Origin: a virus
Direction: 5' to 3' (one strand)
IMG/VR virus record: IMGVR_UViG_3300030110_004955
Location: 1 to 53,117 of that record
DNA: 53,117 nucleotides
Both the position numbers and the translations under genes were made by a program. A model generated the notes under the pieces. The model was not told the origin of the DNA, searched no databases, and saw only the letters and a list, made by a program, of their open reading frames with translations. Numbering within the stretch: the first letter of the stretch is position 1; each line of letters opens with the position of its first letter. This document shows positions 18,206-51,478 of the stretch, in pieces.

Positions 18206-18211
18206 GGCGAT

Positions 18212-20849: not shown

Positions 20850-21145
20850 CTTTTAGACCATCTTCCAGGTCCACTACGAGCATCTATTCTTGCACGTTCA
20901 CCTAAGTCAACAAGGTGTGCCACCCAACTTTCGTATCTAACGGGCTCATTCTCCCCTATTTTTGGTGAGGAAGAAAAAGCTTCAGCCAATCCCTTAACGT
21001 GGCGCATTGTAGGTAAGCGTGTACCAGATTCAATCCGACTGACTTCTGATTGACTTAAACCTGAAGCACGAGAAAGATCTGCAAGCGTCCACTTCCGAGA
21101 CTCACGGGACTTTCGCATAAAACGAGAAAATGAACTAACAGACAT
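20846..21145 (-). CDS. Xre-family transcriptional regulator
   Basis: A 99-residue protein starting at the ATG 21145 with an AGGAG site. Residues ~10-60 form a classic Xre/Cro helix-turn-helix (WTLADLSRASGLSQSEVSRIESGTRLP, then a third helix). It sits divergent from the replication operon, with operator-like palindromes between them, so it likely represses its own promoter and that of the helicase gene. A lysogeny repressor would also fit, yet no integrase is seen in this window, so a lytic-phase regulator is equally possible. Confidence 0.8.
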   Translation of the reverse strand: MSVSSFSRFMRKSRESRKWTLADLSRASGLSQSEVSRIESGTRLPTMRHVKGLAEAFSSSPKIGENEPVRYESWVAHLVDLGERARIDARSGPGRWSKR

Positions 21146-21203
21146 AAAATCTCCTAAGCACCGTAACGGTAGCCTAAAAAACACACTACGTCAACTTTTA
21201 GTC

Positions 21204-31812: not shown

Positions 31813-31955
31813 TTGTTTAGTCTGAGTCATTATCCCCCAGGTAAATGTTTCGGGCTTTGGGTTGTGCCGTCTGGATTTTCGGGTCCAGGCGGTGCGTTCC
31901 TGTGTAGTTGATTTTCGAATTATTCTTTTTGGACTTTGATTTTTAGGCGGTGACA

Positions 31956-34076: not shown

Positions 34077-34123
34077 ATGGTTGTCGAGTGGTGCCTTATG
34101 AATAAATCAGGTAGACTCCGAAT

Positions 34124-34681
34124 ATGAGTGACGAGTCAACAGTAGACCTACCGCCTGCACCAAACACAGGGGCAGCGCCAGCAAACCAACCACTACATCT
34201 TGTGCCTACCTCAGTAGTGCCTGCGGGAGAACAAGAGGTTGCGTCGATGCTTGCAGAGCAAGCAAGGTTCAACGATGAGCCGGAAATGAAAGCTGTCGCA
34301 AGTAGGCTTTTAGAGGCTGGGTATACCGTGCAAGCAACAGCGCGGCGTCTCGGCTTGAGGTCGTCGACGGTGTGGTCCTGGTCGAAGGAGCCTGTGATAT
34401 CGGGTGCCATTACGTCAGGTGCAGAGCGCAGACGTACAGTGCTTGGCCAAGGGTTGGAAGAAGCCGCAGAGCAAGCGCTTGGTGCATTGATCGAAGTGGC
34501 TAATGATGTGGGTGCGCAACCCAGGGATCGGGTCAAGGCATCAGAAGCAATACTTGATCGGTGTGGTATTACTCCGTCAACAGGGCAAACAGATGTGGCT
34601 GTTGGTGTCACGGTTGATGTGGACTTTGATGAGCGGTTGGCTCGCATCGTTGCTGGTGCGGCAACAAAGAGTGAGACCTAA
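34124..34681 (+). CDS. Terminase small subunit-like DNA-binding protein
   Basis: A 185-residue protein. A disordered Pro/Ala N-terminus (1-40), a helix-turn-helix (QATARRLGLRSSTVWSWSKEP, ~66-90), and a helical segment ending in ALGALIEVAND...DRVKASEAILDRCGIT, which matches the C-terminal helical part of phage small-terminase proteins. It would recognise packaging sites. The large terminase is not present nearby or elsewhere in this window, which is unusual; alternative reading as a general HTH regulator is possible. Confidence 0.65.
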   Translation: MSDESTVDLPPAPNTGAAPANQPLHLVPTSVVPAGEQEVASMLAEQARFNDEPEMKAVASRLLEAGYTVQATARRLGLRSSTVWSWSKEPVISGAITSGAERRRTVLGQGLEEAAEQALGALIEVANDVGAQPRDRVKASEAILDRCGITPSTGQTDVAVGVTVDVDFDERLARIVAGAATKSET

Positions 34682-34729
34682 CGGGCTCTATAGGATACAC
34701 TATTGGTACGGTAATCCGATGGAGGTCGT

Positions 34730-35083
34730 ATGCATGGTAGTGGTCCAGCGCTTTTGATCCTGGCGAAGCGTGAAGTTGCAGGAGATGAGTTGCCTGATTT
34801 TTCGGGTGACTCGATGGTTAAAGCGAAAAAGAAAATGTTGGATGGAGAATCCGAGTCGGCGGTACCGCAGTCCCACGACAAAGGGGAGGGGGAGAAGAAG
34901 TATTCGGAAGACCCGCATATGGCTATGAAGGAAATGGCGGAAGAGTTGTACAAGGCATCAAAGATGCACGCGGGGCAGGCGGATAAACTGATTGAGATTT
35001 GTGAGGACATGTACGGGAAAGAACATGGTGAGCACAAAGCGGCAGGGCATAATCCGCATGGTAAGGGTAAAGACCTTTATTGA
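34730..35083 (+). CDS. Small Lys/Glu-rich phage protein
   Basis: A 117-residue protein with a GGAGG site. It is charged and mostly helical (SEDPHMAMKEMAEELYKASKM region), with His/Gly/Lys-rich ends (HGEHKAAGHNPHGKGK). It lies after the small-terminase-like gene at the end of the plus-strand block. No family recognised; may be a structural or packaging accessory. Confidence 0.55.
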   Translation: MHGSGPALLILAKREVAGDELPDFSGDSMVKAKKKMLDGESESAVPQSHDKGEGEKKYSEDPHMAMKEMAEELYKASKMHAGQADKLIEICEDMYGKEHGEHKAAGHNPHGKGKDLY

Positions 35084-35104
35084 ATGCGTTGTGAATGCTG
35101 ACAT

Positions 35105-35146
35105 AAAAAAACGCCCAACCGGCGAAAGTGAAAACCGGAAGGGCGT
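35105..35146 (-). terminator. Intrinsic terminator of the long minus-strand operon
   Basis: The arms ACGCCCAACCGG (35111-35122) and CCGGAAGGGCGT (35135-35146) pair as two GC blocks of six and four bases with a small internal mismatch, and on the minus strand are followed by seven or so Ts (35105-35110). It converges with the end of the plus-strand block. Confidence 0.75.
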
Positions 35147-35227
35147 AAGGGGCTAAGCCCCAGGCTGATTTCGAATTGACCGTGAAGTCGAATAGTGGTT
35201 AACCAGGCGGTGGGTTGTGTGCCAGGG

Positions 35228-35929
35228 TCAATGACTGAGGAAGACGATGAGTGAACCGGCCTCGCCTGCGTAGCGAGAGATGCCTGTGTGCTTGGCATCG
35301 CATAAACCACAAGTGTTGCAGTTGACGCCTTGCTTATACTGGGCGGGACACACGATGCCTTTGCGGCCTTTGGGTGTGACGAACAGTGATTGACCATTCC
35401 ATTCGGGGAGGTGTTTGAGGTTGGGTCTACGTGAGCCGGGTACACGATACTGGTCGGTAACCATGGCAGTGCGCCACCCGGCATCGATGAGGTCGTCGGC
35501 TTCCTCGAGGGTATGTACGGAAGCCATGGCCAAACCTTTGAGGTGTTTGCCTTTGTCTTTGGCGAAGTGGGTGTAGAGAAGGAGACCGCGAAGGCCAGCG
35601 TTGCGGATCTGGTCGACCCAACCTTCCACGGTTTCGCGGGTGAATACCCATGGGTCACCACCTACTGCGCCCCGGACGTAGCGGGAGGAACGTATGGACT
35701 TGGTCAGCGCGGCGGACAAACTGTATTGGTCGGGATGGGTAGTGTACTTCTTTTGCATGGAGGAATGGCCCATGACGGCGGTACCTTGCCAATAGTAGCA
35801 TCCGTTGGTTCGCATTGGGCAGCCGTCGCATGAGGCGTTGGCCTGGGCTTTGGTGGCGCCTACATATCCCTGGGGGATGTCGCCGGTTTTTGAGTTTTTT
35901 GAACGACCGGTCCACAGCATTGTTGTCAT
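35228..35929 (-). CDS. Cysteine-rich phage protein (DUF7227-like)
   Basis: A 233-residue protein. I chose the ATG at 35929 because it overlaps the upstream stop (TGATG) and has GGAGG at a suitable distance. Cysteines cluster in ASCDGCPMRTNGCYYW (three Cys) and, at the C-terminus, CPAQYKQGVNCNTCGLCDAKH (four Cys), with several histidines. Many phages encode proteins of this kind (NSKTG..PQGYVG opening, then GTAVMGHSSM). Metal or Fe-S binding is likely; a radical-SAM or nuclease role was considered but no defining motif was found. Last gene of the minus-strand operon. Confidence 0.65.
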   Translation of the reverse strand: MTTMLWTGRSKNSKTGDIPQGYVGATKAQANASCDGCPMRTNGCYYWQGTAVMGHSSMQKKYTTHPDQYSLSAALTKSIRSSRYVRGAVGGDPWVFTRETVEGWVDQIRNAGLRGLLLYTHFAKDKGKHLKGLAMASVHTLEEADDLIDAGWRTAMVTDQYRVPGSRRPNLKHLPEWNGQSLFVTPKGRKGIVCPAQYKQGVNCNTCGLCDAKHTGISRYAGEAGSLIVFLSH

Positions 35930-36159
35930 CATTCCTCCAGGGCGAGTTGTTGGGCTTTGATAAGGTGGTAATTGTCCCACCGTTCTTTTGTACATTTCAT
36001 GCAGTTGCATAGATGATCAGGTTGCGCATCCCAATTGGGCAGTACGTTGTAAACCTTTTCGCCGCCTTCGATACGGTTGAGTTGGTTGGTCGTCACAGCT
36101 AGTGGTGTGGGTTCTGAGAGGGTGTAGGTTTCACCGTCGTCGAGTACATAGATGATCAT
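35929..36159 (-). CDS. Small phage protein, unknown
   Basis: A 76-residue protein. Begins with strand-like IIYVLDDGETYTL and has a CNCMKC cysteine cluster near residue 55. Overlaps both neighbours (ATGA with the upstream gene at 36156). Metal-binding via the cysteines is possible; function unknown. Confidence 0.55.
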   Translation of the reverse strand: MIIYVLDDGETYTLSEPTPLAVTTNQLNRIEGGEKVYNVLPNWDAQPDHLCNCMKCTKERWDNYHLIKAQQLALEE

Positions 36160-36431
36160 TGGTCTTCTCGAGGTGGTGGTCCGTTGGGAATAGATGGTTG
36201 GTTGACGTCATCGTTGATACTGAATGGATTGAATGGTGGGCGGGTGGCGTAGTCTTGCAGGATCATGTGAATGACTGACATCAACCCATCGAGGCGTAGT
36301 TGTTCCTCTTCGCGACAGGCGCGGACCTCGTCCATGGTAGCGTCGGCGGTGTTACAATAGACCTCGGTTTTGGTGCGAGATTCGACCGCGATGCGGTAGG
36401 CGTCTATTTGGTCGCGGATCATGTGGAGCAT
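36156..36431 (-). CDS. Small helical phage protein, unknown
   Basis: A 91-residue, mainly helical, acidic protein (first ~60 residues) with a Pro-rich tail. A second in-frame ATG lies three codons in (36422), so the start is uncertain. Overlaps the next gene. No family recognised. Confidence 0.55.
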   Translation of the reverse strand: MLHMIRDQIDAYRIAVESRTKTEVYCNTADATMDEVRACREEEQLRLDGLMSVIHMILQDYATRPPFNPFSINDDVNQPSIPNGPPPREDQ

Positions 36432-36435
36432 TGGG

Positions 36436-36639
36436 TCACCAGATAGGTTTGTAGTTTGGGATGGGTACGATGGAATCTTTACAGATGTTACGAGTGACGT
36501 TGTAGAACGGATCGTCCCAATCGTCAGGCAGGTGGTCTTGTGGGAAGACGGTGTGTATGATTGTAAGGGCGTCGGAAAACCACACGCCTTTAATTAGTAG
36601 GCGGGCCATGGCGGCTTGTAAGAAACTACTGCGTGGCAT
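36436..36639 (-). CDS. Small phage protein, unknown
   Basis: A 67-residue protein with a GAGG site. The opening ~30 residues are helical and hydrophobic (AAMARLLIKGVWFSDALTIIHTVF), perhaps a small fold rather than a membrane helix. Overlaps the upstream gene by 14 bases. Unknown function. Confidence 0.5.
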   Translation of the reverse strand: MPRSSFLQAAMARLLIKGVWFSDALTIIHTVFPQDHLPDDWDDPFYNVTRNICKDSIVPIPNYKPIW

Positions 36640-37012
36640 TGGTACCTCGTTGGGCTTTTTCTATGTGAAGGAAAACATCTTCGATTGTGCATAGGTCTGC
36701 GTCGAGCGCTTGTTGCATTATGACCTGGTGGCCGTGCTTGTCGTAGTCCATTGAATGATCATAGGTTGGGAAGTCGCGGATATCGAATTCAAAATAGGTA
36801 TGGTCGACATCGCTCATCGCGGGAGGGTGATTGGCGGGGTCGCCGTCGTGGAGCGTGTACCAGTAGCTTAGGCGTTCGTTGTAGTCGTCGTTTTTGTATG
36901 CGTGAAATACCTGGTAGATCCACAAACTAGCGCGTTCGGTTTTTGTGGTGGGTTTGAATTTGGTGACGGTGAATGCTAAATCAGGTTGAACCCATTCGTG
37001 TTTCCAAGGCAT
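36626..37012 (-). CDS. Small acidic phage protein, unknown
   Basis: A 128-residue protein; ATG 37012 overlaps the upstream stop by one base. Contains many aromatic and acidic residues (repeated Tyr/Asp, YFEFDIRDFP) and ends with a helical segment. Unknown function. Confidence 0.55.
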   Translation of the reverse strand: MPWKHEWVQPDLAFTVTKFKPTTKTERASLWIYQVFHAYKNDDYNERLSYWYTLHDGDPANHPPAMSDVDHTYFEFDIRDFPTYDHSMDYDKHGHQVIMQQALDADLCTIEDVFLHIEKAQRGTNATQ

Positions 37013-37260
37013 CAGTCTTCCTGGCCGTCGGTGGTATCGTCGACGGTACGGCGGGTCAGCTCGTTTGTGCAATTGGTAACGAGCCACTGAAGTTGGGCGT
37101 CGGTGAAGTCGTCGAGATCATCCGTGGATATACAGATACGAGCATCAGCTTCGAAGTCCTGGACCTCGATAGTCAAACATTCGTATTGCACTTCAATGTC
37201 GACATTCGCAATGGATATGTAGGCAGGCCAGTCGAGGGTTAAGGGTTCGGTGGTAGACAT
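37012..37260 (-). CDS. Small acidic phage protein, unknown
   Basis: An 82-residue, strongly acidic, Asp/Thr-rich protein, with a strand-like start (YISIANVDIEVQYE). Part of the dense minus-strand series. Unknown function. Confidence 0.5.
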   Translation of the reverse strand: MSTTEPLTLDWPAYISIANVDIEVQYECLTIEVQDFEADARICISTDDLDDFTDAQLQWLVTNCTNELTRRTVDDTTDGQED

Positions 37261-37270
37261 GGTAGGGCCT

Positions 37271-37714
37271 TTAGGAGTTGGATACGACGCGTAGTCCGCG
37301 TGCGATTTCGGGGATAGCGGGAGTGTTAGAGTCGACGTCTTCGAGGATCAACTCACCATCGAAACGGGTGCTGCCGGAACGGGGGCGTTCTTTGTACGGC
37401 ATGACAATGTCGAGGCGCGCTTCGTAGGTACGTTCGTTCTTATGTTCGAAGCGACCTTTACGGATGTCGTGTAGGTTTGCTACGAGGGCGTGGTATTCGG
37501 TAGCCGAAAGACGGTCGAGTAGATAGCGTACGATGTTTGCGCTACCACTGTCATCACGTCGGCGGGTTAATCCGGGTTTGCCCTTGCGAAGGACACCGAG
37601 CAGAGTTGCAGTGAATTGAATGTTGTATATGCCGGGTTGAATTTCGGCGGCAAAGTGCTCAGCGTTTTTGCCTTGGTTGAATTTTTGCAGGGCAACTTTG
37701 GTGATTGCGTCCAT
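37271..37714 (-). CDS. Small phage protein, unknown
   Basis: A 147-residue protein with a strong AGGAGG site. Mixed helix and strand, with an Arg-rich stretch (LTRRRDDSGSANIVRYLLDRLS) that may touch nucleic acid. No family recognised. Confidence 0.6.
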   Translation of the reverse strand: MDAITKVALQKFNQGKNAEHFAAEIQPGIYNIQFTATLLGVLRKGKPGLTRRRDDSGSANIVRYLLDRLSATEYHALVANLHDIRKGRFEHKNERTYEARLDIVMPYKERPRSGSTRFDGELILEDVDSNTPAIPEIARGLRVVSNS

Positions 37715-37722
37715 GTAACCTC

Positions 37723-38094
37723 CTATGGAATTGAGACGTTGGGGTTGTGGTGGTTTGTCGTGGCGTTGTACCGGGTGGTGAAGAGTGCGTAGGGCGCAGA
37801 GTTTACCGGGACAAGCGTTTCTGATTCGACGAATGTGGTGTGGTCGTATGGGTTGTATGTCACGCCACGGGAGATACCGGCGCGCAGGTCGTCAGCAACG
37901 TGGTAGACACGGTGACCGCGAGCAAACGCGTGGACATTCTTACGACGTTGATGGCGTACCCGAGCATTACCACCGGGTTGAACCACGAATTCAACATCCT
38001 CAAGGGCGATATAGGGTACGTGTTCAATGACCTTGCCTTTGTGCCGGACACTGAAACATTTTTTTCGAATGTTCCAATAGACGTCGACTTTCAT
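37723..38094 (-). CDS. Small phage protein, unknown
   Basis: A 123-residue protein with a strong AAGGAGG site. A strand-rich N-terminus (VDVYWNIRKKCFSVRHKG) followed by Arg/His-rich (RVRHQRRKNVHAFARGHR) segment suggests nucleic acid binding. Phage-like; function unknown. Overlaps the next gene by 4 bases. Confidence 0.6.
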   Translation of the reverse strand: MKVDVYWNIRKKCFSVRHKGKVIEHVPYIALEDVEFVVQPGGNARVRHQRRKNVHAFARGHRVYHVADDLRAGISRGVTYNPYDHTTFVESETLVPVNSAPYALFTTRYNATTNHHNPNVSIP

Positions 38095-38273
38095 GATTGA
38101 CCTCCTTCGAGTTTATAGGTTTCCCAAACGATGTGGGCTTGTTCGAATAGGGCATCCAGCTCGTCGTCATCGATATCCATCTCAAGGCACAGAGCATCGC
38201 AATCGAGGTGGGCTTGGGTTGCGTTGATCTCACAGATGAATCGGGCAAACTGGATTAGATTATTGTGTCGCAT
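38091..38273 (-). CDS. Small acidic helical protein
   Basis: A 60-residue protein with AGGAA upstream; mainly acidic and helical. A 16-codon frame between it and the preceding micro-gene could couple their translation. Function unknown. Confidence 0.5.
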   Translation of the reverse strand: MRHNNLIQFARFICEINATQAHLDCDALCLEMDIDDDELDALFEQAHIVWETYKLEGGQS

Positions 38274-38309
38274 GGGTCATTCCTGCTTGTAGGGGAAGGC
38301 GATCCGTCA

Positions 38310-38426
38310 TCACTCACCTTCCTGTCTGATGTTGGGAACCGGTATCAAATATCCCCACGGGTCCATCAACCATGCATATCCAATACAATCAATCCAATAT
38401 GTTTCATACTTGCGGTTTGGGTTCAT
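38310..38426 (-). CDS. Micro-gene, 38 residues
   Basis: An ATG at 38426 overlaps the stop of the upstream gene (TAATG) and opens a 38-residue frame to a TGA at 38310-38312. The product is aromatic-rich (KYETYWIDCIGYAW) and could be a small peptide. It fills what otherwise would be a 150-base gap in an operon where genes abut, which supports it. Function unknown. Confidence 0.5.
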   Translation of the reverse strand: MNPNRKYETYWIDCIGYAWLMDPWGYLIPVPNIRQEGE

Positions 38427-38608
38427 TACTCACCGCCGTTGGCGTCATCAGACTTGAACATGTTCAAGACTCCATGAGCGTTACACATGACGCGGTTCAA
38501 TGAGCCATCATCGTCGCCATCGTATAGGTTCGGGTCGGCCTCGAGGTAGTTGACCAGGAGTTGTAGAGCGTCGTACGCGCGTTGCAATTTGTAGATGTTG
38601 GTTTTCAT
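38426..38608 (-). CDS. Small helical phage protein
   Basis: A 60-residue protein; ATG 38608 overlaps the upstream stop (TAATG) and has an AGGAAGG site. Helical N-terminus (IYKLQRAYDALQLLVNYLEAD) then an acidic region. Unknown function. Confidence 0.55.
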   Translation of the reverse strand: MKTNIYKLQRAYDALQLLVNYLEADPNLYDGDDDGSLNRVMCNAHGVLNMFKSDDANGGE

Positions 38609-38970
38609 TACGCACCTTCCTGCATAGTCCAAGTGTATAGGCAGCCATTCGATCGATAGACGTCGTTACGCCAATCGGTCGCATACTCAGTGGTCGGGGG
38701 ATCGGCCTGCTGTATCAGAGAGACGGGACAGTCCCAATAGCAAGGTCCCATCGACTCATCGATAGCTTTGTATCCCCAGTCGCCTTGGTATGAAGACAAC
38801 CTGAATAGGCATACAAACGAGGGGCCTTGTTTGGGTTGGATGAGCATCCATAGGTGACGACCGAAGTTAGTAGCTTTCCGGTCAATGATGGTGAATATGT
38901 CGTTGCTGTACATTTTGACCAGCGTATCGACGACATCTTTGCGGCTGTAGAATCCTGTTGTTGTCCCCAT
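38608..38970 (-). CDS. Conserved-type small phage protein
   Basis: A 120-residue protein whose central segment (GYKAIDESMGPCYWDCPVSL) is of a kind I recall from many phage genomes, with paired cysteines in a CYWDC arrangement. Starts with TAATG coupling. Function unknown; a metal- or redox-linked role is possible. Confidence 0.6.
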   Translation of the reverse strand: MGTTTGFYSRKDVVDTLVKMYSNDIFTIIDRKATNFGRHLWMLIQPKQGPSFVCLFRLSSYQGDWGYKAIDESMGPCYWDCPVSLIQQADPPTTEYATDWRNDVYRSNGCLYTWTMQEGA

Positions 38971-39206
38971 TAATCACCGCCTTCATACGCGAGCCAACTA
39001 TGCACAAGGTTGTGTGCGTCGGGGTCAGTGTTGGGGGTCTCCTTAAAACAGTTGCGCAAGGTCCATCCAAGTCGCTTTGGAGAAGAGACGACTGATTGCC
39101 GGACATCGTCGAGCAGTGCATCCTTTGCGCGCTGTATAGCTTCGGGTGTGTTGGGTACTGTGTAGGTGTTGATCACCAGGGATACGTTTACGTGTTCGGG
39201 TTTCAT
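38970..39206 (-). CDS. Small phage protein, unknown
   Basis: A 78-residue protein; starts with a strand-like VNVSLVINTYTVPN and continues helical. Overlaps the upstream gene by 4 bases. Unknown function. Confidence 0.5.
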   Translation of the reverse strand: MKPEHVNVSLVINTYTVPNTPEAIQRAKDALLDDVRQSVVSSPKRLGWTLRNCFKETPNTDPDAHNLVHSWLAYEGGD

Positions 39207-39463
39207 CGGTTTCGCTCCATGCGTTCGAGTTTCCAGTCTTCATAGCGTCGGTCATCCTCGGCATCTTTGAGACCTTGGACGTGGTCGGCTGCACCCTGTT
39301 CGGTGACCTCTTCTTCTTCGTGGTCTTCGAGTTCGATGGGTTGTCCAGTCTCGCAGTTAATTGCCTTTAGGATTTCCATTTCGTCGTAGTCGGGGTAGAA
39401 GACGCAGTCGACTTCGATCTCTATGGTGCGGGTTATGTGGTAGGTGAAGTGTTGCTTACGCAT
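39203..39463 (-). CDS. Small acidic protein, start of its sub-operon
   Basis: An 86-residue protein with an AGGAG site: a beta-rich N-terminus (YHITRTIEIEVDCVFYPDY), then a very acidic middle (EDHEEEEVTEQG) and a basic C-terminus. It follows a ~185-base gap that carries one copy of a repeated motif. Unknown function. Confidence 0.55.
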   Translation of the reverse strand: MRKQHFTYHITRTIEIEVDCVFYPDYDEMEILKAINCETGQPIELEDHEEEEVTEQGAADHVQGLKDAEDDRRYEDWKLERMERNR

Positions 39464-39551
39464 GAAGACTCCTAAGAATGCGTGGCATGGAAAGTACTGG
39501 GCTGGTTAGGGCAGGATAGGAATGTGCTGCGTCGGCGCGGCGTGGGTAAAA

Positions 39552-39568
39552 ATGCGTGGTCTGGTGAG
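39552..39568. repeat. Intergenic repeat motif, copy 1 (ATGCGTGGTCTGGTGAG)
   Basis: Matches the copy at 40899-40915 at 15 of 17 positions. Both lie in gaps (39464-39648, 40806-41071) between minus-strand genes, and nearby sequence also shares TGGAAAGT and TACTGG fragments. Possibly a phage promoter or a binding site for a regulator. Confidence 0.5.
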
Positions 39569-39648
39569 AGGGGGGTGGGGCCAGAAACGGATAGGCGCGA
39601 CCTGGAATGATGAGGCACCTGTTCGCCGTGCCTCCCTGCGCGATATGA

Positions 39649-40269
39649 TTACTTGGCGGCGGCGCTGTTCATACGGTACTTGCCGTTTGAGTCAGCGACT
39701 GAGACGTCGAAGCGACCCCATCCCCAGCCACGGCTGGCACCGATACCGGTGTACATACCCGCGTCGGTGATGTACTTGATGATGGCGTCTTCATCCATTT
39801 CGTCCTGCATGTAGGTGATGGTGATCTCGGCGGACCAGTCATAGAATACAGCACGGGTTTTTGGAATCATCTTACCGTTGACCTTGACCAAAGATTCGTA
39901 GTGGAAACGGTCGTCTTTGAGTAGGCCTTTTAATGTTTTGGGTCCGTCGTAATCGAGGACAGCGTCACGCATAACGCTACAATAACGTTTACATGCGGCA
40001 CCACCTTTACTTAGTTTGGCGCCTTCGATGAGAGCAGCGCGAATGTTTTCGGCGGGGATTACTACCTTGCCTTTGTCGTTGAGGTAGAGGCACGCTTCGA
40101 ATTCGACAAGCGCCATCTGGTCAAGGATTGCATCAACGTCGGCGGTCTTGCCTTTCTTTTTTGTGTTGAGTTCCTTGAGACGGCGGGCGTATTTATTGCG
40201 TGGGTTCGCGGTCTGGTTGTTTTGCAGCATGAGGCGGTCGCCTTGCAGCAGGAAAGTTACGTCGGGCAT
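39649..40269 (-). CDS. RAMP/Cas7-like fold phage protein
   Basis: A 206-residue protein with AGGAC upstream. The opening strand (VTFLLQGDRLMLQNN), a helical middle, and a terminal strand-helix-strand ending in the glycine-rich loop YTGIGASRGWGWGRFDV look like the ferredoxin-like RAMP fold of Cas7/Cas5 proteins, though there is no CRISPR array. Similar standalone proteins occur in phages. RNA or DNA binding is likely by analogy. Start overlaps the upstream stop (TAATG). Confidence 0.55.
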   Translation of the reverse strand: MPDVTFLLQGDRLMLQNNQTANPRNKYARRLKELNTKKKGKTADVDAILDQMALVEFEACLYLNDKGKVVIPAENIRAALIEGAKLSKGGAACKRYCSVMRDAVLDYDGPKTLKGLLKDDRFHYESLVKVNGKMIPKTRAVFYDWSAEITITYMQDEMDEDAIIKYITDAGMYTGIGASRGWGWGRFDVSVADSNGKYRMNSAAAK

Positions 40270-40805
40270 TAGTTGTCCTGGGTTGGGGGGGTGTTGGTCG
40301 GTTGGACAGGAGCGTCCTGGTAGCGTTGAAGACGGTTGGCTTCTACTCGGGCACGTCGTACGTGACTTGCAAGTGCAGACATACGAGTCTGGGCGGCTTG
40401 TTTGCGGCGGCGATCTTCATCAGACAGGTCGCTGTTGCGCGTTAGGCGCAGGATCTTGCGTCCACGACCAATGGTTTTGCTGATGTCTTTGAGCACGTTG
40501 GTGTCAACGAAGGCAACGTTTTGGTCGGGCTCAAGAAGTTTGAAGCCTTCGCCCCATAATGTTTTCGGCCAACGGCCAGTGCGTTCGAGTACGATCATCC
40601 GAAACTCAGCGCGGAGAGTGAGCAGGGTGAGGTTCCATTGCTTGTGTAGATCGATGGGATCGGTGTTGGTAGGAGGGGCAAGTCCAGACCATTCAATCAA
40701 TTGTTCGGTCGTTATTAGATTGAATTCAGGGCTGGCTACGAGGATATCGTCGAGACGATCGGCTGCATGTTCGGCAGCTTTGAAGACTACGGGTGTAGGG
40801 TACAT
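40269..40805 (-). CDS. Helical phage protein upstream of the RAMP-like gene
   Basis: A 178-residue protein; I chose ATG 40805 with GGAGTGA upstream because the open frame beyond it has no better start. Mostly helical, with an Arg/Lys/Ala-rich C-terminal half (RRRKQAAQTRMSALASHVRR) that could bind nucleic acid and a Pro/Thr tail. Stop/start coupling to the RAMP-like gene suggests a functional pair. Not recognised. Confidence 0.6.
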   Translation of the reverse strand: MYPTPVVFKAAEHAADRLDDILVASPEFNLITTEQLIEWSGLAPPTNTDPIDLHKQWNLTLLTLRAEFRMIVLERTGRWPKTLWGEGFKLLEPDQNVAFVDTNVLKDISKTIGRGRKILRLTRNSDLSDEDRRRKQAAQTRMSALASHVRRARVEANRLQRYQDAPVQPTNTPPTQDN

Positions 40806-40898
40806 GGTCACTCCGGGTGGGGAAGATGCGCGGTTTGTAAGGGCACGGGTTGGTATGACGCGGAATGGAAAGTCGCGTACTGGTGAGAACAAATAAAT

Positions 40899-40915
40899 AT
40901 GCATGGTTTGGTGAG
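40899..40915. repeat. Intergenic repeat motif, copy 2 (ATGCATGGTTTGGTGAG)
   Basis: Second copy of the motif at 39552, 15 of 17 positions identical. It lies in a 266-base gap (40806-41071) with no supported gene, just upstream of the 40805 start, a plausible promoter position for the minus strand. Confidence 0.5.
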
Positions 40916-41071
40916 GCGCGCTGTGGTGCGGGCAGGAAAGGTCGGGTCGGACTGGGCCTGCTGCGTCGAGGACGGCTCTGGTTTGTGTCAGGTTTTTTGG
41001 TGGTGACTGACGAACCACAAAGGGGGGGATTTTGTTTCCGTTCACCGCAGATCCCGTACTGCGCGAAAGTG

Positions 41072-41260
41072 TTACCTGGCCTCCTGGCCGCAGATGGCAC
41101 AGGTCCAGATGTCATCGGCGTCTGGAGCGTGTAGTACCTGGCAGTCAGATTTTTTGGATAGTTCGATGAAGTTTCCGTGATGATCTATGACCCAGTCCTC
41201 AGTGACATGGGCCGTGGCTATGAAGCGATCATGTGTGGGATCGCTGGGGCATACTTTCAT
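41072..41260 (-). CDS. Small zinc-ribbon-like protein
   Basis: A 62-residue protein with cysteines in CPSDPTH near the N-terminus and a CAIC pair near the C-terminus, of the small zinc-finger type common in phages. ATGA overlap with the DUF932 gene upstream. Probable metal binding; function unknown. Confidence 0.6.
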   Translation of the reverse strand: MKVCPSDPTHDRFIATAHVTEDWVIDHHGNFIELSKKSDCQVLHAPDADDIWTCAICGQEAR

Positions 41261-42186
41261 TTGGCCTCGCCAACGTCTACGTACTCACGAATACTCAGGT
41301 CGAACGCAGGGATGTGCGCGTCGGTTACTGAACCACCAGCAAGGGCGATAGCCTTTGTCGCATGGTCAATGCCAGCGAAGTGACGGAAAGCTTGGTTGGG
41401 TGGGGTGCGTTGACCGGCGGCAGTGACAGCCTGGTATGCAGAGAACAAGTCATTGGTGCCGTGTTCACTGTGAAGATCACCGTTGTGGCAATCGTTCCAG
41501 TAACGGAAGGCAGCGGTAAACGAGTTGGGCTTGATCAAACCACGACTAAATAAGACACCCATGTATGCACCAAACAAATCGTTCTGTACTGGTATGTCCT
41601 TCCACCCTTCAATCATGCGAATACGTTCGAGGACTGGGGTGACTGCTGTGTCAGTAATGTCGTCCAACATATTACCGAGAGTGGAGAATACGTTGGTAGT
41701 ATGCTTGGCACTGACCATGTGTTCGCCAGAGAAACAACCGTTGGCACATACGAACGGAGCGCTACCAATAGCTATCTGGTTGGAGATAGTCTTGTCGTAG
41801 CTGGACCGTAGGGCAACGGTGATGGCCTGACCAGTGAGGCCGGAACCGAAACCAATCATGCCAAAGAGTTGGCTACCCTTTTTATTCAGGGCATAGGTTT
41901 CGAATAGGGGTTCAGCGTTGAGGACATTGGCCATTGCATCACGGGCACCGTCAATGAGGGACGCGTATGGTACAGGTTGGTAGCTGGCATTGCCTGAACG
42001 TGGATGCAATTCAGGCTCGGGCACAGGTACTTCGCACACGCTACGGTAGTCGGTACGATAGGCTTCGGGTGCACCGATGGTGCATATCTGTTGGCGTTTT
42101 AGTTGTGGGGGAGGAGCGACGGGAGCACGATTGATGCTTGTATTCAGACGCTCTACGGAGAGTGGTACGCAACTATGTTCTTGCAT
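41257..42186 (-). CDS. DUF932 family phage/plasmid-like protein
   Basis: A 309-residue protein. The core (QAITVALRSSYDKTISNQIAIGSAPFVCANGCFSGEH, split across 120-160) matches the DUF932 family by eye: the S-YDK motif, then FVC-NGCFSG. These proteins are carried by phages and plasmids and are of unknown biochemical role, often near recombination or DNA-binding genes. The N-terminus (~70 residues) is Pro-rich. SSB and small unknown genes are nearby. Confidence 0.8.
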   Translation of the reverse strand: MQEHSCVPLSVERLNTSINRAPVAPPPQLKRQQICTIGAPEAYRTDYRSVCEVPVPEPELHPRSGNASYQPVPYASLIDGARDAMANVLNAEPLFETYALNKKGSQLFGMIGFGSGLTGQAITVALRSSYDKTISNQIAIGSAPFVCANGCFSGEHMVSAKHTTNVFSTLGNMLDDITDTAVTPVLERIRMIEGWKDIPVQNDLFGAYMGVLFSRGLIKPNSFTAAFRYWNDCHNGDLHSEHGTNDLFSAYQAVTAAGQRTPPNQAFRHFAGIDHATKAIALAGGSVTDAHIPAFDLSIREYVDVGEAK

Positions 42187-42198
42187 TGGTATGTAGTC

Positions 42199-42483
42199 CT
42201 ATGAAGTACGGGGTTCTCGGGGTGGTAGCCAAAGCGCATCGTCGTCGAGGCAGGGAACCTGGAGACGCTCGGATTGGCCAGATGCTGGGTGGTACCGATG
42301 CCGAAACAAATGGTACCAATGGTGTTGAACAGGATTGGTGTATGGGTGAGATCCCATGTATTGCCAACGTTCAAAGGTTGTGACGGGGTGCTTGGCTGTG
42401 TGCGGTATTGGTGTACTAAACACAACAGCCCAGGCACGTTCCCATTCATCGCTATCTTTTTTCAGGCATTGGAAATCGGCCAT
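42199..42483 (-). CDS. Small phage protein, unknown
   Basis: A 94-residue protein; start overlaps the preceding gene by about 22 bases and has AAGGAA upstream. His/Trp/Pro-rich (FERWQYMGSHPY, VQHHWYHLFRHRYH). Unknown function; metal binding through the histidines is conceivable. Confidence 0.5.
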   Translation of the reverse strand: MADFQCLKKDSDEWERAWAVVFSTPIPHTAKHPVTTFERWQYMGSHPYTNPVQHHWYHLFRHRYHPASGQSERLQVPCLDDDALWLPPREPRTS

Positions 42484-42743
42484 GCTTTATCAGTTCCTTC
42501 TTTGCGTGGGTTACGCGGGAGGTCCTGAAGCAATAGATTCAAGTGCTGTTCAGGACTAAGTGGTAGCAGTCCATCGTATACAGCCAGGGACAATACAGCA
42601 GTTTGTTCCAACATAGGTTGTTGGTTTTTGCTGAAGTGAGTCCCGCCCTTCTTGATTACGGTTGCGGTGGGGGATGTCATTTGATTGAGGTAGTCAACGT
42701 AACGCTGACGGTGGGTACGAGTATCAGGTTTTCTTTTTGGCAT
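42462..42743 (-). CDS. Small basic phage protein, unknown
   Basis: A 93-residue protein with AGGAGG upstream. A basic N-terminus (PKRKPDTRTHRQRYVDYLNQM) could bind nucleic acid; the rest is helical. It lies directly downstream of SSB, so a replication accessory role is possible. Confidence 0.55.
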   Translation of the reverse strand: MPKRKPDTRTHRQRYVDYLNQMTSPTATVIKKGGTHFSKNQQPMLEQTAVLSLAVYDGLLPLSPEQHLNLLLQDLPRNPRKEGTDKAWPISNA

Positions 42744-42755
42744 GGCGCCTCCTGT

Positions 42756-43139
42756 TTAGAATGGGATGTCATCGTATGTGGATGACGGGTGGGATTGTGA
42801 CTGTCCGTTCATAGACTCAGCACGGGAGATAAACTCGACGCGGTCAGCAAGAATCTCGCGGGCGGTACGTTCTTGGTTGTCACGCGTCTTGTACTTACGA
42901 GTGCGAAGCTTACCCTCGACGATAACCTTGGAGCCTTTGGTCAGATACTTTCCGCAGGTCTCTGCCTGTTTGCCGAAGACGACAACCTGGTGCCATTCGG
43001 TATGGTCAGTGTATGTGCCGTCGGGTTGGCGGTTCCGTTCGTTGGTAGCGACACTAAGGTTGACTACCTTGGTACCGCTTTTGGTGTCCTTGACCTCGGG
43101 GTTGGCGCCAAGGTTGCCAGATATAAATACTCGGTTCAT
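42756..43139 (-). CDS. ssb: Single-stranded DNA-binding protein
   Basis: A 127-residue protein with a GAGGAA site. The OB-fold is plain (MNRVFISGNLGANPEVK, then VVNLSVATNE, WHQVVVFGKQAE, GSKVIVEGKLRTR) and the C-terminus ends in DDIPF, the acidic tip that recruits replication and repair partners. This is a canonical SSB; it would coat single-stranded DNA during phage replication. Encoded far from the polymerase and probably expressed with the minus-strand (early) genes. Confidence 0.95.
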   Translation of the reverse strand: MNRVFISGNLGANPEVKDTKSGTKVVNLSVATNERNRQPDGTYTDHTEWHQVVVFGKQAETCGKYLTKGSKVIVEGKLRTRKYKTRDNQERTAREILADRVEFISRAESMNGQSQSHPSSTYDDIPF

Positions 43140-43141
43140 GA

Positions 43142-43588
43142 TTATTCCTCGTTGGTTGGGGTGATCATACTGTTGTCACAAATGTAACGGAGTTCGTAGA
43201 GTCTGCGTTCAGATGTACGCATGAAGTTGTTGTCGGTATCAAGGCAGTTGAATGATACGGTTTGTTCGGTATCGATAAGTGTTGTAATTGCGTGAACGAT
43301 CGTGTCGATTAACTCGGACGTTCGGGAATCGGTTGGGAGGTTTGCTTCGTCGATGGTCAACACTAAGCCGTTGACATTACTTATCGTAAGACACAGGGAA
43401 GTGTCGGCACCAAGGCGGACAGAATCTGACCAGACAATCCATGGCGCACCGATGATATACTTACGGCCCCAGAGGTAGCCAGCGTAGAGTACCAGGTCCA
43501 TTGCAGTGCCACGCCAATGGGGCCAGTCGTGTATGCGTACGGCCTTTGGGTTGAGCATCGGGGATGCTATGTCAGAGCGTGTTGCCAT
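43142..43588 (-). CDS. Small phage protein, unknown
   Basis: A 148-residue protein with an AGGAG site. Strand-rich middle (SLCLTISNVNGLVLTIDEANLP) and helical segments (ELIDTIVHAITTLID). Upstream of SSB. No family recognised. Confidence 0.6.
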   Translation of the reverse strand: MATRSDIASPMLNPKAVRIHDWPHWRGTAMDLVLYAGYLWGRKYIIGAPWIVWSDSVRLGADTSLCLTISNVNGLVLTIDEANLPTDSRTSELIDTIVHAITTLIDTEQTVSFNCLDTDNNFMRTSERRLYELRYICDNSMITPTNEE

Positions 43589-43596
43589 GGTGTCTC

Positions 43597-43818
43597 CTAA
43601 AAGGGTTTGTCGAAATCGGGTGCGTCATCGGATGCGTAGTTGGATAGGAAGGAGATTGCGTTGCGGGCCCAGGCGACAGCTTCCTCGAATTCTTCTATGG
43701 CGTCGGGACCATCGGCAGGTGTGGGTGCAGATAGAAGTAAGTCCTGGAGGTCAGCCTCGAGAGACTTGATACGTTCGTATGCCTGCTTGGGTGTGATGGT
43801 ATTGGAATCGGTGGACAT
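43597..43818 (-). CDS. Small acidic helical protein
   Basis: A 73-residue acidic helical protein; weak site, perhaps coupled to the upstream micro-gene. Unknown function. Confidence 0.5.
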   Translation of the reverse strand: MSTDSNTITPKQAYERIKSLEADLQDLLLSAPTPADGPDAIEEFEEAVAWARNAISFLSNYASDDAPDFDKPF

Positions 43819-43821
43819 GGT

Positions 43822-43908
43822 TTACTTCATGAATAGGGTTGAGAAACAGAGTAGGTAGATGGCGCCGATGAATACGGCGGACACATTCCATATGAGAGTT
43901 GGGAACAT
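43822..43908 (-). CDS. Micro-gene, 28-residue membrane peptide
   Basis: ATG 43908 with an AGGAGT site opens a 28-residue frame ending at a TAA (43822-43824). The product is almost all hydrophobic (PTLIWNVSAVFIGAIYLL), a typical single-pass membrane peptide. It fits exactly between two genes. Small inner-membrane peptides in phages often act in superinfection exclusion or lysis control, but no function can be assigned. Confidence 0.65.
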   Translation of the reverse strand: MFPTLIWNVSAVFIGAIYLLCFSTLFMK

Positions 43909-43916
43909 AGGTACTC

Positions 43917-44267
43917 CTACCAGTCGGCGGTGTAGAAAAGTTTGTTGCCTTTGCGCAATGAGGCTTTGGCTTTTTTGATGAAGCTTGCAGTCGCCTGGTC
44001 ACTGTGGACTCCGGATGTACCGAAGAAGAAACCCGTGGTGTAAGGCAACTGGTCGTAGACTAATTCGAGGCGAATGATATCGTCCATTGTTAATTCCACA
44101 TCCTTACAGTTCATGCTGGCATCTTCCGGGGGGTTGGTCTTTATACGCCACAGTTGTTCCATCCAACCTTGTAGGTCAGCGTGCTTACGCCAGTAGAACA
44201 GTTCGTCGACTGGTTCATCGGGTGGGTGATTGGGTGGTACTTCGAAAACATATTGGTCAAGTCCCAT
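43917..44267 (-). CDS. Conserved-type phage protein (MGLD..YWRKH family)
   Basis: A 116-residue protein. Its start (MGLDQYVFEVPPN) and the segment ELFYWRKHADLQGWMEQ are of a widespread phage family; in some phages similar proteins carry inconsistent names. Helical with a central basic patch. Function unknown. Confidence 0.7.
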   Translation of the reverse strand: MGLDQYVFEVPPNHPPDEPVDELFYWRKHADLQGWMEQLWRIKTNPPEDASMNCKDVELTMDDIIRLELVYDQLPYTTGFFFGTSGVHSDQATASFIKKAKASLRKGNKLFYTADW

Positions 44268-44433
44268 GGGTATTCTCCTTAGAACGGGCGATGTCGGTTA
44301 CAGGCGTAGTCGTTGACTGTATTGTCTGACTACGCAGATAGTATTCGTGTTCACGCTCGATCCATTCCTGGTCCATGCGGTCTTGCATGATGGCGTCGGT
44401 GCGTTTGCGGATAGCGTCGAATGGATTGTCCAT
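44257..44433 (-). CDS. Small helical protein, 58 residues
   Basis: ATG 44433 overlaps the upstream stop by one base (TGATG) and has GGAGGA upstream, giving 58 residues ending in the next gene. Charged and helical (AIRKRTDAIMQDRMDQEWIE). Its existence fills a 165-base gap with the same overlap style as the 35929 junction. Function unknown. Confidence 0.6.
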   Translation of the reverse strand: MDNPFDAIRKRTDAIMQDRMDQEWIEREHEYYLRSQTIQSTTTPVTDIARSKENTHGT

Positions 44434-44939
44434 CATTCCTCCTGAGCGAGAGCATGTTGGCTCCAGAAGTTAGAAGCAGCACGAGCATCGCTGGACCATT
44501 GGTCGATGAGGGCAGAAGCTTCGGCGGGTGGTACAGCAGTAAGGTTTATAGGGGGAAGGTCCCACCATTCGCGGGGGCTGGGCGTGTCTGATTGGGTACC
44601 GTATGCAGTGAAGAGCATCAACGAACCGTCTTCTACACGCATACCAATGACAACCATGTTGCGGGCTGGACGCATGGGTGCATCGATTAAGCGGGAGGGT
44701 CCACGGCGTTTGGCACGTTGGACATAGGTGACCTGGTCGTCATCGATAGGTTCATCACCAACGCTCGGGCCGTACAGTGCGGAAGGTAGACTCTCGCATG
44801 TGTCTGGAAGCGACAGGACTTGGATGAGGAAGGAACCATCCCAGTCAGCGAGCGCTGTGTCGATGAATGAAAGGTGGTCAGCGTTGAGGCCGTGGTCATC
44901 GTGAGCGATGACGATTCCGTTTGGTGTTGTAGTTGGCAT
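44433..44939 (-). CDS. Phage protein, unknown
   Basis: A 168-residue protein. An N-terminal strand-like GIVIAHDDHGLNA, a helical middle with Lys/Arg-rich QRAKRRGPSR, then strands (NMVVIGMRVEDGSLMLF) and a helical C-terminus. A beta-alpha fold seems likely. Unknown function. Confidence 0.55.
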   Translation of the reverse strand: MPTTTPNGIVIAHDDHGLNADHLSFIDTALADWDGSFLIQVLSLPDTCESLPSALYGPSVGDEPIDDDQVTYVQRAKRRGPSRLIDAPMRPARNMVVIGMRVEDGSLMLFTAYGTQSDTPSPREWWDLPPINLTAVPPAEASALIDQWSSDARAASNFWSQHALAQEE

Positions 44940-44958
44940 GAGTTGGTAACCTCTTTGG

Positions 44959-45621
44959 TTATTTGGTTGTGGGTACAGGGCCTGTAGGAAACGCAGGGTA
45001 GTCGCAGTACGTGGAGTCAGGTGCGATCGTCAGGTTGTTGTACACGTATTCGAAGTTGAAGGTAATACAATCACGAGCGCGAGTAACAGTACTTTGCTGT
45101 TCGTGTAGCGGAGTGAAGGACAGGATGAGATCTTCGTACTCGGTCGTTGTGAGTGCGATGATCTTTCTTGTGGCTTCGTCTTCTGCGACGGTAGGGAAGG
45201 ACACTTGGATTTCCATTTTGAGACGTTCGTAACCTGCCAATGTGGTGTCGCAGTACGGATGATGTGTGTCAAACTCAGGGGTCCATACATGAACGAAGAG
45301 ATGTTCACGTAGATCATCGGGGTCGAAGGTAATATCTTCTAAGTGCTCAATGATTCTTTTGAGTTGAGATTTAAGCGACTGTTCAACGGTTTGGGTGACT
45401 GCGTGATTTCGGTTGTCACGCATGTTGCAGCAAGCTGCGAGAACCGGAGTGTACATATCCAGCAGTTTGTTGTTGAGGTCGTTGTACATTGCTTCAACAC
45501 GAGGCTTGAGTTCTTCGTACAGTTTGATTTGATCGCGCTCGCACTGATGTATGATTGTGTTCAGTGCACTATCAAACGGGATCGTTGGTTTGCTATCAGG
45601 TTTGGTTTTGGCTGATGACAT
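44959..45621 (-). CDS. First gene of the long minus-strand operon
   Basis: A 220-residue protein; ATG 45621 has an AGGAGT site and is preferred over an upstream start. A helical N-terminus with repeated Leu/Ile patterns (QIKLYEELKPRVEAMYNDLNN) and a later mixed region (RKIIALTTTEYEDLILSF). No family recognised. It is first downstream of the GTAACC repeat region, so it may be strongly expressed early and/or connected to that region. Confidence 0.65.
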   Translation of the reverse strand: MSSAKTKPDSKPTIPFDSALNTIIHQCERDQIKLYEELKPRVEAMYNDLNNKLLDMYTPVLAACCNMRDNRNHAVTQTVEQSLKSQLKRIIEHLEDITFDPDDLREHLFVHVWTPEFDTHHPYCDTTLAGYERLKMEIQVSFPTVAEDEATRKIIALTTTEYEDLILSFTPLHEQQSTVTRARDCITFNFEYVYNNLTIAPDSTYCDYPAFPTGPVPTTK

Positions 45622-45793
45622 GGGTTGACTCCTACTTACAAAGCTATGAAATGTTGGCACCCCCTATAGATGCTGCAACGTCACGGGGATGCCGGTTAAA
45701 TGACGCTGCTCGTTTGTGTTTGGTCAGGCACAAATTACCTGGCGTGATGGGTTCAGTTGGACATACAACGATGTAGACCATCAAGTCTTGGAG

Positions 45794-45809
45794 ACACTAC
45801 GGGTAGTGT
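45794..45809. repeat. Inverted repeat ACACTAC-GG-GTAGTGT
   Basis: A perfect 7+7 inverted repeat with a 2-base centre at the edge of the GTAACC array. It looks like a dimer operator and lies upstream of the minus-strand operon. Confidence 0.5.
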
Positions 45810-45820
45810 GTTGACACTGT

Positions 45821-46099
45821 GTAACCACCAAGATGCAGGTGGTAACGGGATAACCCAGTAACAACCTGACTTATCGAGGTGTAACCCAGTTACCCACTTT
45901 GGTAGAGTATGGATAGGTATACGCGAGCACCGGGCAAAAGGGCTTTAATACATATAAACGAAAGGATACGAGGAAGATTCACTCAGACTTTCTATGTATT
46001 CAATTATGTGGTTACAGTGGTTACACTTGTTTATATATAAGGATGAACCTTGAGTATGGTGTAACCCATGAGTGGTAACGCTTTGGGTAACTGGGTAAC
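45821..46099. repeat. Iteron-like GTAACC/GGTTAC array
   Basis: About ten copies of a GTAAC(C) core in two clusters, 45821-45895 and 46011-46099, in both orientations: forward starts at 45821, 45842, 45858, 45881, 46061, 46075, 46087 and 46095, inverted ones near 45889, 46011 and 46020. An exact 9-base tandem GTGGTTACA spans 46008-46025. The clusters flank a ~110-base AT-rich stretch. No gene is supported in 45622-46337. Best reading: replication origin iterons or a cooperative operator. Confidence 0.6.
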
Positions 46100-46100
46100 C

Positions 46101-46139
46101 GGAACAGAGTATAAATGGAAAGTGGAACAGAGTATAAAT
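46101..46139. repeat. 16-bp direct repeat GGAACAGAGTATAAAT
   Basis: Exact copies at 46101-46116 and 46124-46139 (7-base gap). Read on the minus strand each contains TATACT-like -10 elements, so they may mark promoters facing the minus-strand operon, next to the iteron-like array. Confidence 0.65.
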
Positions 46140-46276
46140 CTTTCCTGGTACCGCAGTCGAAAGTGCTCTTGCCTTACTCGACCACGCTGGAAGTGGGAGT
46201 GTATAGACTTTAAGAAAAGTTCTAAAGTGTCGACCAATGGAATAAAAGTATGTCGAAGACATTCCTTTTCACGGAG

Positions 46277-46313
46277 AAGAAAAAAGCCCCGAGTCACCGA
46301 AGTGACCCGAGGC
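46277..46313 (-). terminator. Intrinsic terminator with TTCG loop
   Basis: On the minus strand GCCTCGGGTCAC pairs with GTGACTCGGGGC (12 bases, one G-U wobble pair) around a TTCG tetraloop, followed by six Ts. It closes the 46338 transcript and insulates it from the iteron-like array. Confidence 0.9.
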
Positions 46314-46337
46314 AGAATAACGAGAGAAGCTTAGAGC

Positions 46338-47129
46338 CTACTCTCCGATTAAGTTACTCAACTTTTCGCGGACTTCGCGATTGTACTCCCTGGCTGTGGC
46401 ACGCTGCGCATCATCTGGATGGATCGTGTCATCAGGACCGTAAGACTCATCGACTTCGTCGACGGGACGAGCCCGGAAGCGAAGACCGAAAGCGTTGAAG
46501 TCTTCGGCGTCGTACGCCTTCTCCTGTACAGAGAATTCGTAGAAGTTGTAAGCAAACTGGGCTTGCTCTTTGGGCCAGTTGAACAAGAACGTCTTGCCAG
46601 TCTGCTCGTTGACACCTTCGTCGCGCCAGCAAGAGAACGTCTCAACGTGGCGAAGGACTCGATTGAGTGCCTTCAGACGCCGCATGTGTTGATGTTCGCT
46701 GAGTTGCTGAGGTTGCCGAGTCTTGACATCAAGCCCTTCGAGTCCCTTAATGACACGCTTAACAATCATGAGGAACGCGTCGAAGGAGACCAGAATGGCC
46801 AAGTGAGTCTCACCTTGGTACTCTTCACCAGAGGACAAGAAGTCATCAAGGTCAAAGTCCTGAGCCATGTCTACTTTCGGCGCATACATGAGTCGCAGAG
46901 CGTCGAAGGGTCTGACGTCGCCATTCTTATCAGGGTTAAGACGAGGACCGTACTTAGCTGACGCACCCTTCACCATAAGCTCAACCTTTGCTCGGTTGGC
47001 GGGAGTATCAGTGAGGTTACGCCAAGGCTCAGCAAGTAGACGCTTAAGGTGACCAGCAGTACGAGTCTGAAGGTCGACGATTCTCTTCTGTGTAGGAGTT
47101 AGCTTCGAGTTAGTTTTTTCAACAGTCAT
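46338..47129 (-). CDS. Helical phage protein at the origin-like region
   Basis: A 263-residue protein; ATG 47129 with GGAAGTG upstream is preferred over the frame's earlier start. It is largely helical and charged, with a Lys/Arg-rich part (AHMRRLKALNRVLRHVETF-like, positions about 145-165). No family recognised. It lies between the iteron-like array and the palindrome region and has its own terminator, so it could be an origin-binding or early regulatory protein; that is only context. Confidence 0.65.
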   Translation of the reverse strand: MTVEKTNSKLTPTQKRIVDLQTRTAGHLKRLLAEPWRNLTDTPANRAKVELMVKGASAKYGPRLNPDKNGDVRPFDALRLMYAPKVDMAQDFDLDDFLSSGEEYQGETHLAILVSFDAFLMIVKRVIKGLEGLDVKTRQPQQLSEHQHMRRLKALNRVLRHVETFSCWRDEGVNEQTGKTFLFNWPKEQAQFAYNFYEFSVQEKAYDAEDFNAFGLRFRARPVDEVDESYGPDDTIHPDDAQRATAREYNREVREKLSNLIGE

Positions 47130-50872: not shown

Positions 50873-51478
50873 GTGCCAGATCAACTCGTAAACATGTCAT
50901 CCCAGTTTGGTGGTCTTCCCATGGATCAGCTTATTGGTGGTCCTCTCAAGGCTGCTTGCTCAGCACAAACGCTGCTTGCTAAGGCATCTACGGATTTCAT
51001 TAAGGATGTAGGTCTCGATACAACAGGCACAACTGGGGCGATGTCTGCTCGCACGGTGGACTTTAGTTTCAACAAACCTGTTCAGGGTGCTGATGGTACC
51101 ACTACGATGGAAAAGGTGGATCTGCAGGTCCCGCTTCTTGCGATTGTCAACACACCATCGCTGTCGGTAAAAGAGGTTGATGTTAATTTCACGATGGAAG
51201 TGAAGTCTTCTACGTCGAGTAAGACCACTTCTGACACCAAGGCAGAGCTTACGGCACACGCTAAGTACAATGCGGGGCTATTTAGTTGTGATGTCACTAT
51301 TCACGGTTCTGTGGCCAACCACAGCGAGAATAGCCGTAAGAGCGACAACAGCGCCAAGTATGACGTGAAGGTGATTGCACGTGATGATGGTCCACCCGAA
51401 GGGCTTATGAAGGTTCTGGATATGCTTAACGATGCGATTGCGCCGACTCAGGGTGTACCTGCTCCAGCCAAGAAGTAG
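50873..51478 (+). CDS. DUF2589 family protein, copy 2
   Basis: A 201-residue protein, GTG start with AGGAGG upstream. The segments PLKAACSAQTLLAKASTDFIK, RTVDFSFNKPVQ, and EKVDLQVPLLAIVNTPSLSV...FTMEVKSS are diagnostic of DUF2589 by my recollection. The N-terminal helix followed by a beta-sandwich-like core ends with DGPPEGLMKVLD, the same block as in copy 1. Ten bases separate the two genes. Function unknown; in a phage virion block it may be a structural or accessory protein. Confidence 0.8.
   Translation: MPDQLVNMSSQFGGLPMDQLIGGPLKAACSAQTLLAKASTDFIKDVGLDTTGTTGAMSARTVDFSFNKPVQGADGTTTMEKVDLQVPLLAIVNTPSLSVKEVDVNFTMEVKSSTSSKTTSDTKAELTAHAKYNAGLFSCDVTIHGSVANHSENSRKSDNSAKYDVKVIARDDGPPEGLMKVLDMLNDAIAPTQGVPAPAKK

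Follow-up and report, generated by a model that had tools for sequence, protein, structure and literature searches.

A mirrored GTAAC iteron array as the likely replication origin of a tailed phage encoding a DUF927 helicase

The window, by which we mean the whole 53,117-nt stretch analysed here, comes from an uncultured tailed phage represented by an IMG/VR contig. It is linear, has no end repeats and is incomplete, being devoid of the head and terminase genes present in relatives. Rightward replication genes occupy 21-34 kb and encode a SNF2-type helicase, an exonuclease-like protein, an AAA ATPase, a DNA polymerase, an SbcC-like protein and a DUF927 helicase. The polymerase belongs to family A (25854-28634) and carries an N-terminal uracil-DNA glycosylase domain (PF03167). 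An Xre-type protein is encoded at 20846-21184, and a small-terminase-like HTH protein at 34124-34681, beside the DUF927 helicase gene (rep). Four consecutive genes of cluster 8 at 16863-18583 seem to have arisen by tandem duplication of a gene for a small structural protein, and a DUF2589 protein (50873-51478, E 2e-45) has homologues in several relatives. An early operon that includes the SSB gene runs leftward from 45.66 kb, and the repeats described below lie in the gap upstream of it. The right edge of this gap is the terminator of the neighbouring gene, an intrinsic-terminator-like hairpin on the minus strand at 46286-46313 that belongs to the 46338-47207 gene and lies outside the array. 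An earlier sequence-only reading had given the gene-free gap as 716 bp, a length that holds when the left gene starts at its ATG and shrinks to 677 bp from an upstream GTG (45660). The proteins flanking the array, 44959 and 46338, had no family match and no IMG/VR relative in the protein search, a DNA similarity search of the array region against phage records returned nothing meaningful, and a search for relatives based on SSB gave distant loci only.

Scanning of the region 45600-46340 revealed 11 GTAAC/GTTAC sites within 279 bp (45821-46099), distributed in two clusters. The left iteron set (45821-45893) consists of GTAAC on the plus strand at 45821, 45842, 45858 and 45881 and GTTAC (minus) at 45889, the sites at 45881 and 45889 forming the innermost doublet. 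The right set (46011-46099) consists of GTTAC (minus) at 46011 and 46020 and GTAAC (plus) at 46061, 46075, 46087 and 46095. The sequence-only reading had counted about ten copies of GTAAC(C) in two clusters, which is right for the 5-base core but not for GTAACC, because only six of the 11 sites have the 6-base form GTAACC/GGTTAC. It had also held that the density is beyond chance and had proposed a genome-wide count of the motif. That count gave 87 other copies, which are dispersed over the 53-kb window with at most 3 per 346 bp, and no second comparable cluster. Third-order Markov simulation of 100 sequences as long as the window gave best clusters of on average 3.85 and at most 6 sites per 346 bp, and the Poisson tail of the array at the background rate was 3e-11 before correction for position. 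Furthermore, GTAAC was the top-ranked word for clustering in an unbiased scan of all 5-mers in the window.

Between the two sets lies a core of 117 bp (45894-46010), the proposed melting region, whose AT content of 60% is a modest enrichment over the 51% of the window. The core contains an imperfect dyad with arms at 45944-45958 and 45989-46003. The repeats pointed out in the sequence-only reading were found to be exact, namely the 9-base tandem GTGGTTACA at 46008-46025, the perfect inverted repeat ACACTACGGGTAGTGT (arms ACACTAC and GTAGTGT around GG) at 45794-45809, just outside the left set, and two copies of GGAACAGAGTATAAAT on the plus strand, 23 bp apart (starts 46101 and 46124; 46101-46139), adjoining the right set. 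The dyad ACACTACGGGTAGTGT is almost identical in five relatives (G004, G007, G008, G009 and L328) and may be an operator or a piece of the leftward promoter region. At the place equivalent to GGAACAGAGTATAAAT, G004, G007, G008 and G009 have an AT-rich, purine-rich stretch. Since site counts, simulations, 5-mer scan and exact repeats agree, the clustered GTAAC array first noticed from the sequence is confirmed as a real observation.

The proposed initiator (Rep) is the product of the gene at 31950-34076 on the plus strand, a DUF927 AAA+ helicase with a C-terminal HTH of the Cch type (HTH_56). Pfam searches with this protein gave DUF927 with E 1.8e-40 and HTH_56 with E 1.9e-5, the latter at 25.1 bits, just under the curated cut-off of 26.2. 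A profile of 34 relatives compared with the PDB matched 8tch (2.6e-70) and 5dgk (1.5e-42), which are the initiation-of-replication protein of SaPIBov1 and the Cch protein of SCCmec, respectively. In agreement with this, the same two structures were the best fold matches of an AlphaFold model of the helicase (mean pLDDT 83; E 2e-26 for 8tch). Of the 22 genome records in the comparison, 21 contain the DUF927 helicase, the relatives having been selected by this gene. By analogy with its solved homologues, this helicase is the likely reader of the GTAAC sites, and its binding to them is predicted. The sequence-only reading had suggested the 46338 protein and the Xre protein as binders. The former has no family match and occurs in only four of the 22 genomes, the window included, and the latter found no support, the widely shared candidate being the DUF927 helicase.

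The helicase has 35 IMG/VR relatives with 48-89% identity, and the records of 21 of them were examined. One dense GTAAC cluster of 6-13 sites per 346 bp was found in 15 of the 21; it is generally the sole one of its size, G012 having a smaller second cluster of 6. The genes that flank the cluster differ strongly between genomes, so that the cluster is apparently selected on its own and not together with its gene neighbourhood. Measured start to start and read outward from the core, site spacing proved to be conserved and mirror-symmetric, with doublets of 8-9 bp on either side of an AT-enriched core of ~106-123 bp. Both halves have offsets 0, 8, 49, 63 and 73 in G012, G015, G016 and G027, with an extra site at 83 in one half and at 126-127 in the other, and the offsets of G025 and G030 are within 2-3 bp of this pattern. 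The window, G004, G007, G008 and G009 have the standard offsets in one half and a related set (0, 8, 47, 68) in the other, which is partly missing in G008 and G009. In the window, the right half, with sites at 0, 9, 50, 64, 76 and 84 from the innermost one, matches the offsets of relatives (0, 8-9, 49-50, 63-64, 73-76, 83-84), and the left half (0, 8, 31, 47, 68) departs from the reference. The layout is looser, with other flanking bases, in G021, G022, G023, G028 and G029. Across the set the innermost sites are 101-129 bp apart, and the AT content of the core is above that of the genome in every record. A second, AGGTTGAACC-like motif lies in most halves within the 41-bp interval between inner and outer sites. 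Because this interval corresponds to about four helical turns, the inner doublet and the outer sites would be on one face of the DNA. Relative to rep, the array lies on the 3′ side, at a distance of about 12 kb in the window and of 3-12 kb in relatives. Separately, we observed dense clusters of CCGGA or CCGGC (11-14 per 350 bp) in G022 (63485), G023 (65324), G021 (~20-370) and G030 (39535), in three of the four records near the small-terminase-like gene and its neighbour.

Should the array be the origin used by helicases of the DUF927 type, similar arrays would be expected in unrelated carriers of such a helicase. In the Firmicutes phages THSA-485A, AC844P1, Jekyll and phiRg507T2_3, the intergenic gap immediately 3′ of the helicase gene or, in phiRg507T2_3, one small gene further on, has GTAAC sites in two sets that enclose a core of 87-121 bp. 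FP_Epona has GGTGAAAC arrays 3′ of the helicase in the same layout, with gaps of 47, 9, 107, 9 and 47. A broader survey took in 136 non-identical DUF927 loci, drawn from viral contigs as well as bacterial genomes. Here the 700 bp 3′ of the gene contained a mean of 5.74 GTAAC, compared to the 0.65 expected from the remainder of each locus. At least five sites were found there in 88 of the 136 loci, and many of the others have another clustered word at that place, for example CTAAC, CCTAA or ATAGG. Six or more sites occur in 80 loci, and in 78 of these the gap that forms the core measures 76-134 bp. The core is AT-rich in all of these 78 (mean 0.73 vs 0.56), the inner sites are oppositely oriented in 75 of them, and the inner doublets are mostly 8-9 bp apart; many loci are interrelated, so these counts are not independent events. 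VapE-like helicase loci treated alike as a control had at least five sites in only five of 71 cases, and GTAAC is therefore not typical of that family.

Mirrored GTAAC arrays were nevertheless seen in phages that lack DUF927, immediately 3′ of genes for VapE-like primase-helicases (PF05272), at L292 (2347-2660), L309 (1874-2050), L350 (1207-1440), L311 (2209-2500) and L394 (3′ of the helicase). In addition, the 125-kb contig L318 encodes a 612-aa protein without Pfam match (9852-11690), a possible unrecognised initiator, with a GTAAC array (11692-12040) beginning 2 bp further on. Since mirror arrays adjoin a few helicases of another family, the GTAAC word alone is not sufficient to identify its reader; that helicase families share the word must be due to a DNA-binding domain inherited in common, to exchange or to convergence. 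A reverse search with the doublet returned 85 contigs, 61 of them with dense clusters, and DUF927 was found in seven of the 39 records tested. Two hits of this search, L336 (2786-3180) and L304 (7207-7600), were discarded as false positives, since their 18-bp tandem repeats, apparently coding, mimic an array, and some of the other hits without DUF927 were VapE-like phages whose mirror arrays are genuine. Differences between helicase residues that might be coupled to the iteron word were present but confounded by phylogeny, and this line was set aside.

Taken together, these comparisons make it highly probable that the GTAAC array is the origin of replication of the phage, read by its own DUF927 helicase and giving a bidirectional start. 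An origin had already been proposed in the sequence-only reading, and the recurrence of the same word and mirror geometry beside DUF927 helicases strongly supports that proposal. The alternative offered there, a master operator, is unneeded. A multi-site operator through which a phage repressor or activator controls the leftward early operon, and perhaps the 46338 gene as well, would fit the position of the array upstream of that operon, the conserved dyad ACACTACGGGTAGTGT beside it and the presence of an Xre-type gene in the phage. We consider it very improbable, because the array persists through the replacement of its neighbours and is found elsewhere just 3′ of the helicase gene, away from the main early promoter. 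Moreover, a dozen mirror-spaced sites around an AT-rich core of 100 bp are unlike a simple operator, and the single promoter-like match in the region is at chance level. A side role of the array in regulating the flanking promoters is possible, as is autoregulation on top of origin function. It is more improbable still that the array is an origin served by a different initiator, which might be an unrecognised early protein responsible for recruiting the DUF927 helicase. Such an initiator could account for the 12 kb between array and rep, for the GTAAC arrays beside a few VapE-like helicases and the unclassified 612-aa protein, and for the second conserved AGGTTGAACC-like motif between inner and outer sites. 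However, the DUF927 helicase belongs to the core genes of the group and comes with a DNA-binding domain of its own, and GTAAC is enriched specifically beside this family when compared with the VapE-like control.

A packaging (pac/cos) site, recognised by the small subunit of the terminase, would be expected in or beside the small-terminase gene. A gene for a small-terminase-like HTH protein (cluster 12; the G004 homologue matches phrog_2538 with E 1.5e-7) does adjoin the array in five relatives (G021, G022, G023, G025 and G030). In the window and G004, however, this gene adjoins rep, some 11 kb from the array, the large terminase and portal of G004 are 7-11 kb away, and in the Firmicutes phages the array follows the helicase and not the terminase, which makes packaging extremely unlikely. 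Two repeat clusters around a core also recall the layouts of attP and parS, but neither a tyrosine integrase (PF00589) nor ParB_N (PF02195) was detected in the window and ten relatives, a search confined to the tyrosine type of integrase and, for the window, to an incomplete contig. An attachment site with arm sites for a recombinase, or a partition centromere, thus has a next to negligible probability. Gene turnover, the distance to the terminase, the lack of tyrosine integrase and ParB and, above all, the association with the helicase argue against operator, pac site, attP and centromere alike.

By analogy with work on SaPI and SCCmec, copies of the DUF927 helicase would bind the GTAAC iterons through their C-terminal winged-helix domain and form two oppositely oriented hexamers on the mirrored half-origins. 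The helicases would then open the AT-rich stretch that separates the inner doublets and self-load on the exposed single strands, giving two forks that move in opposite directions and are presumably served by the family A DNA polymerase, SSB and helicases of the phage. Some features speak against an origin: the GC skew steps down at the array without change of sign, rep is about 12 kb away, the AT enrichment of the core is modest and the left half deviates. Gene direction also flips at the array, which confounds the skew, and late concatemeric replication or transcription could mask a reversal, but the skew lends an origin no support. As a separate observation, the plus strand GC skew over the leftward early genes (34000-46000) is strongly positive (+0.1 to +0.24), the opposite of the usual coding-strand bias, and similar values were seen in G004, G008, G009 and G015.

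The greater interest of these results lies in the recurrence of one word and one geometry in many DUF927 replicons. The chances seem about even that self-loading DUF927 helicases in general use the mirrored GTAAC layout as their origin code, which the VapE type has occasionally adopted and which free-living large phages, prophages and, probably, satellites have in common. If so, origin specificity would be exchangeable between phages and satellites, and the origins of uncultured phages could be read from their sequence alone, the layout serving as a rule for finding them. It is found in a large-phage lineage with its own replication machinery and in many prophages, and its strictly conserved geometry suggests two helicase hexamers facing each other. 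Such minimal symmetric bacterial origins would offer material for the study of helicase self-loading, comparable to SV40 large T. A search of the open-access literature, with most subscription journals outside it, found no paper on such origins in phages.

Among known systems, the array is very probably a variant of the SaPI/PICI-type iteron origin, placed in a large phage and detached from the gene of its initiator. The closest solved structure is that of the SaPIBov1 initiator, likewise a self-loading AAA+ protein with a C-terminal DNA-binding domain. Two sets of iterons with an AT-rich region between them are a constant feature of PICI origins (PMC6092414) and are seen in the window as well; the comparison concerns initiator and layout, not the iteron word, and the SaPI record PT1028 gave a weak match. 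In contrast to the rep-adjacent origin of SaPI/PICI, the iterons of the window phage group lie 3-12 kb from rep, and because those of the window are not directly 3′ of this gene we class the array as a variant and not as a plain member. Its carrier, moreover, is no satellite but a tailed phage that has a polymerase, SSB and helicases of its own together with large structural genes. That the window is itself a PICI element was considered and rejected, given its length (>53 kb), the 65-76 kb of its relatives with portal, terminase and head genes, and the lack of a tyrosine integrase. The Cch protein of SCCmec has the DUF927 helicase fold in common with Rep (5dgk). According to the available part of its description, Cch2 binds short direct repeats 3′ of its own gene via its C-terminal domain, yet its iteron is AAGTG and its helicase family a different one, and a large mirrored array does not figure in that part (PMC7581432). 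The DUF927 prophages of Firmicutes (THSA-485A, AC844P1, Jekyll, phiRg507T2_3 and FP_Epona) are alike in mirror layout, with GTAAC in four of the five, but their helicases are 22-25% identical to that of the window, their arrays are beside rep and their cores are more AT-rich; the examined stretches of these five phage records have no origin annotation. In the origins of iteron plasmids and of the lambda O type, initiator-binding repeats also adjoin an AT-rich region. There the initiator recruits the helicase of the host, whereas in the window phage the protein that binds the iterons would itself be the helicase.
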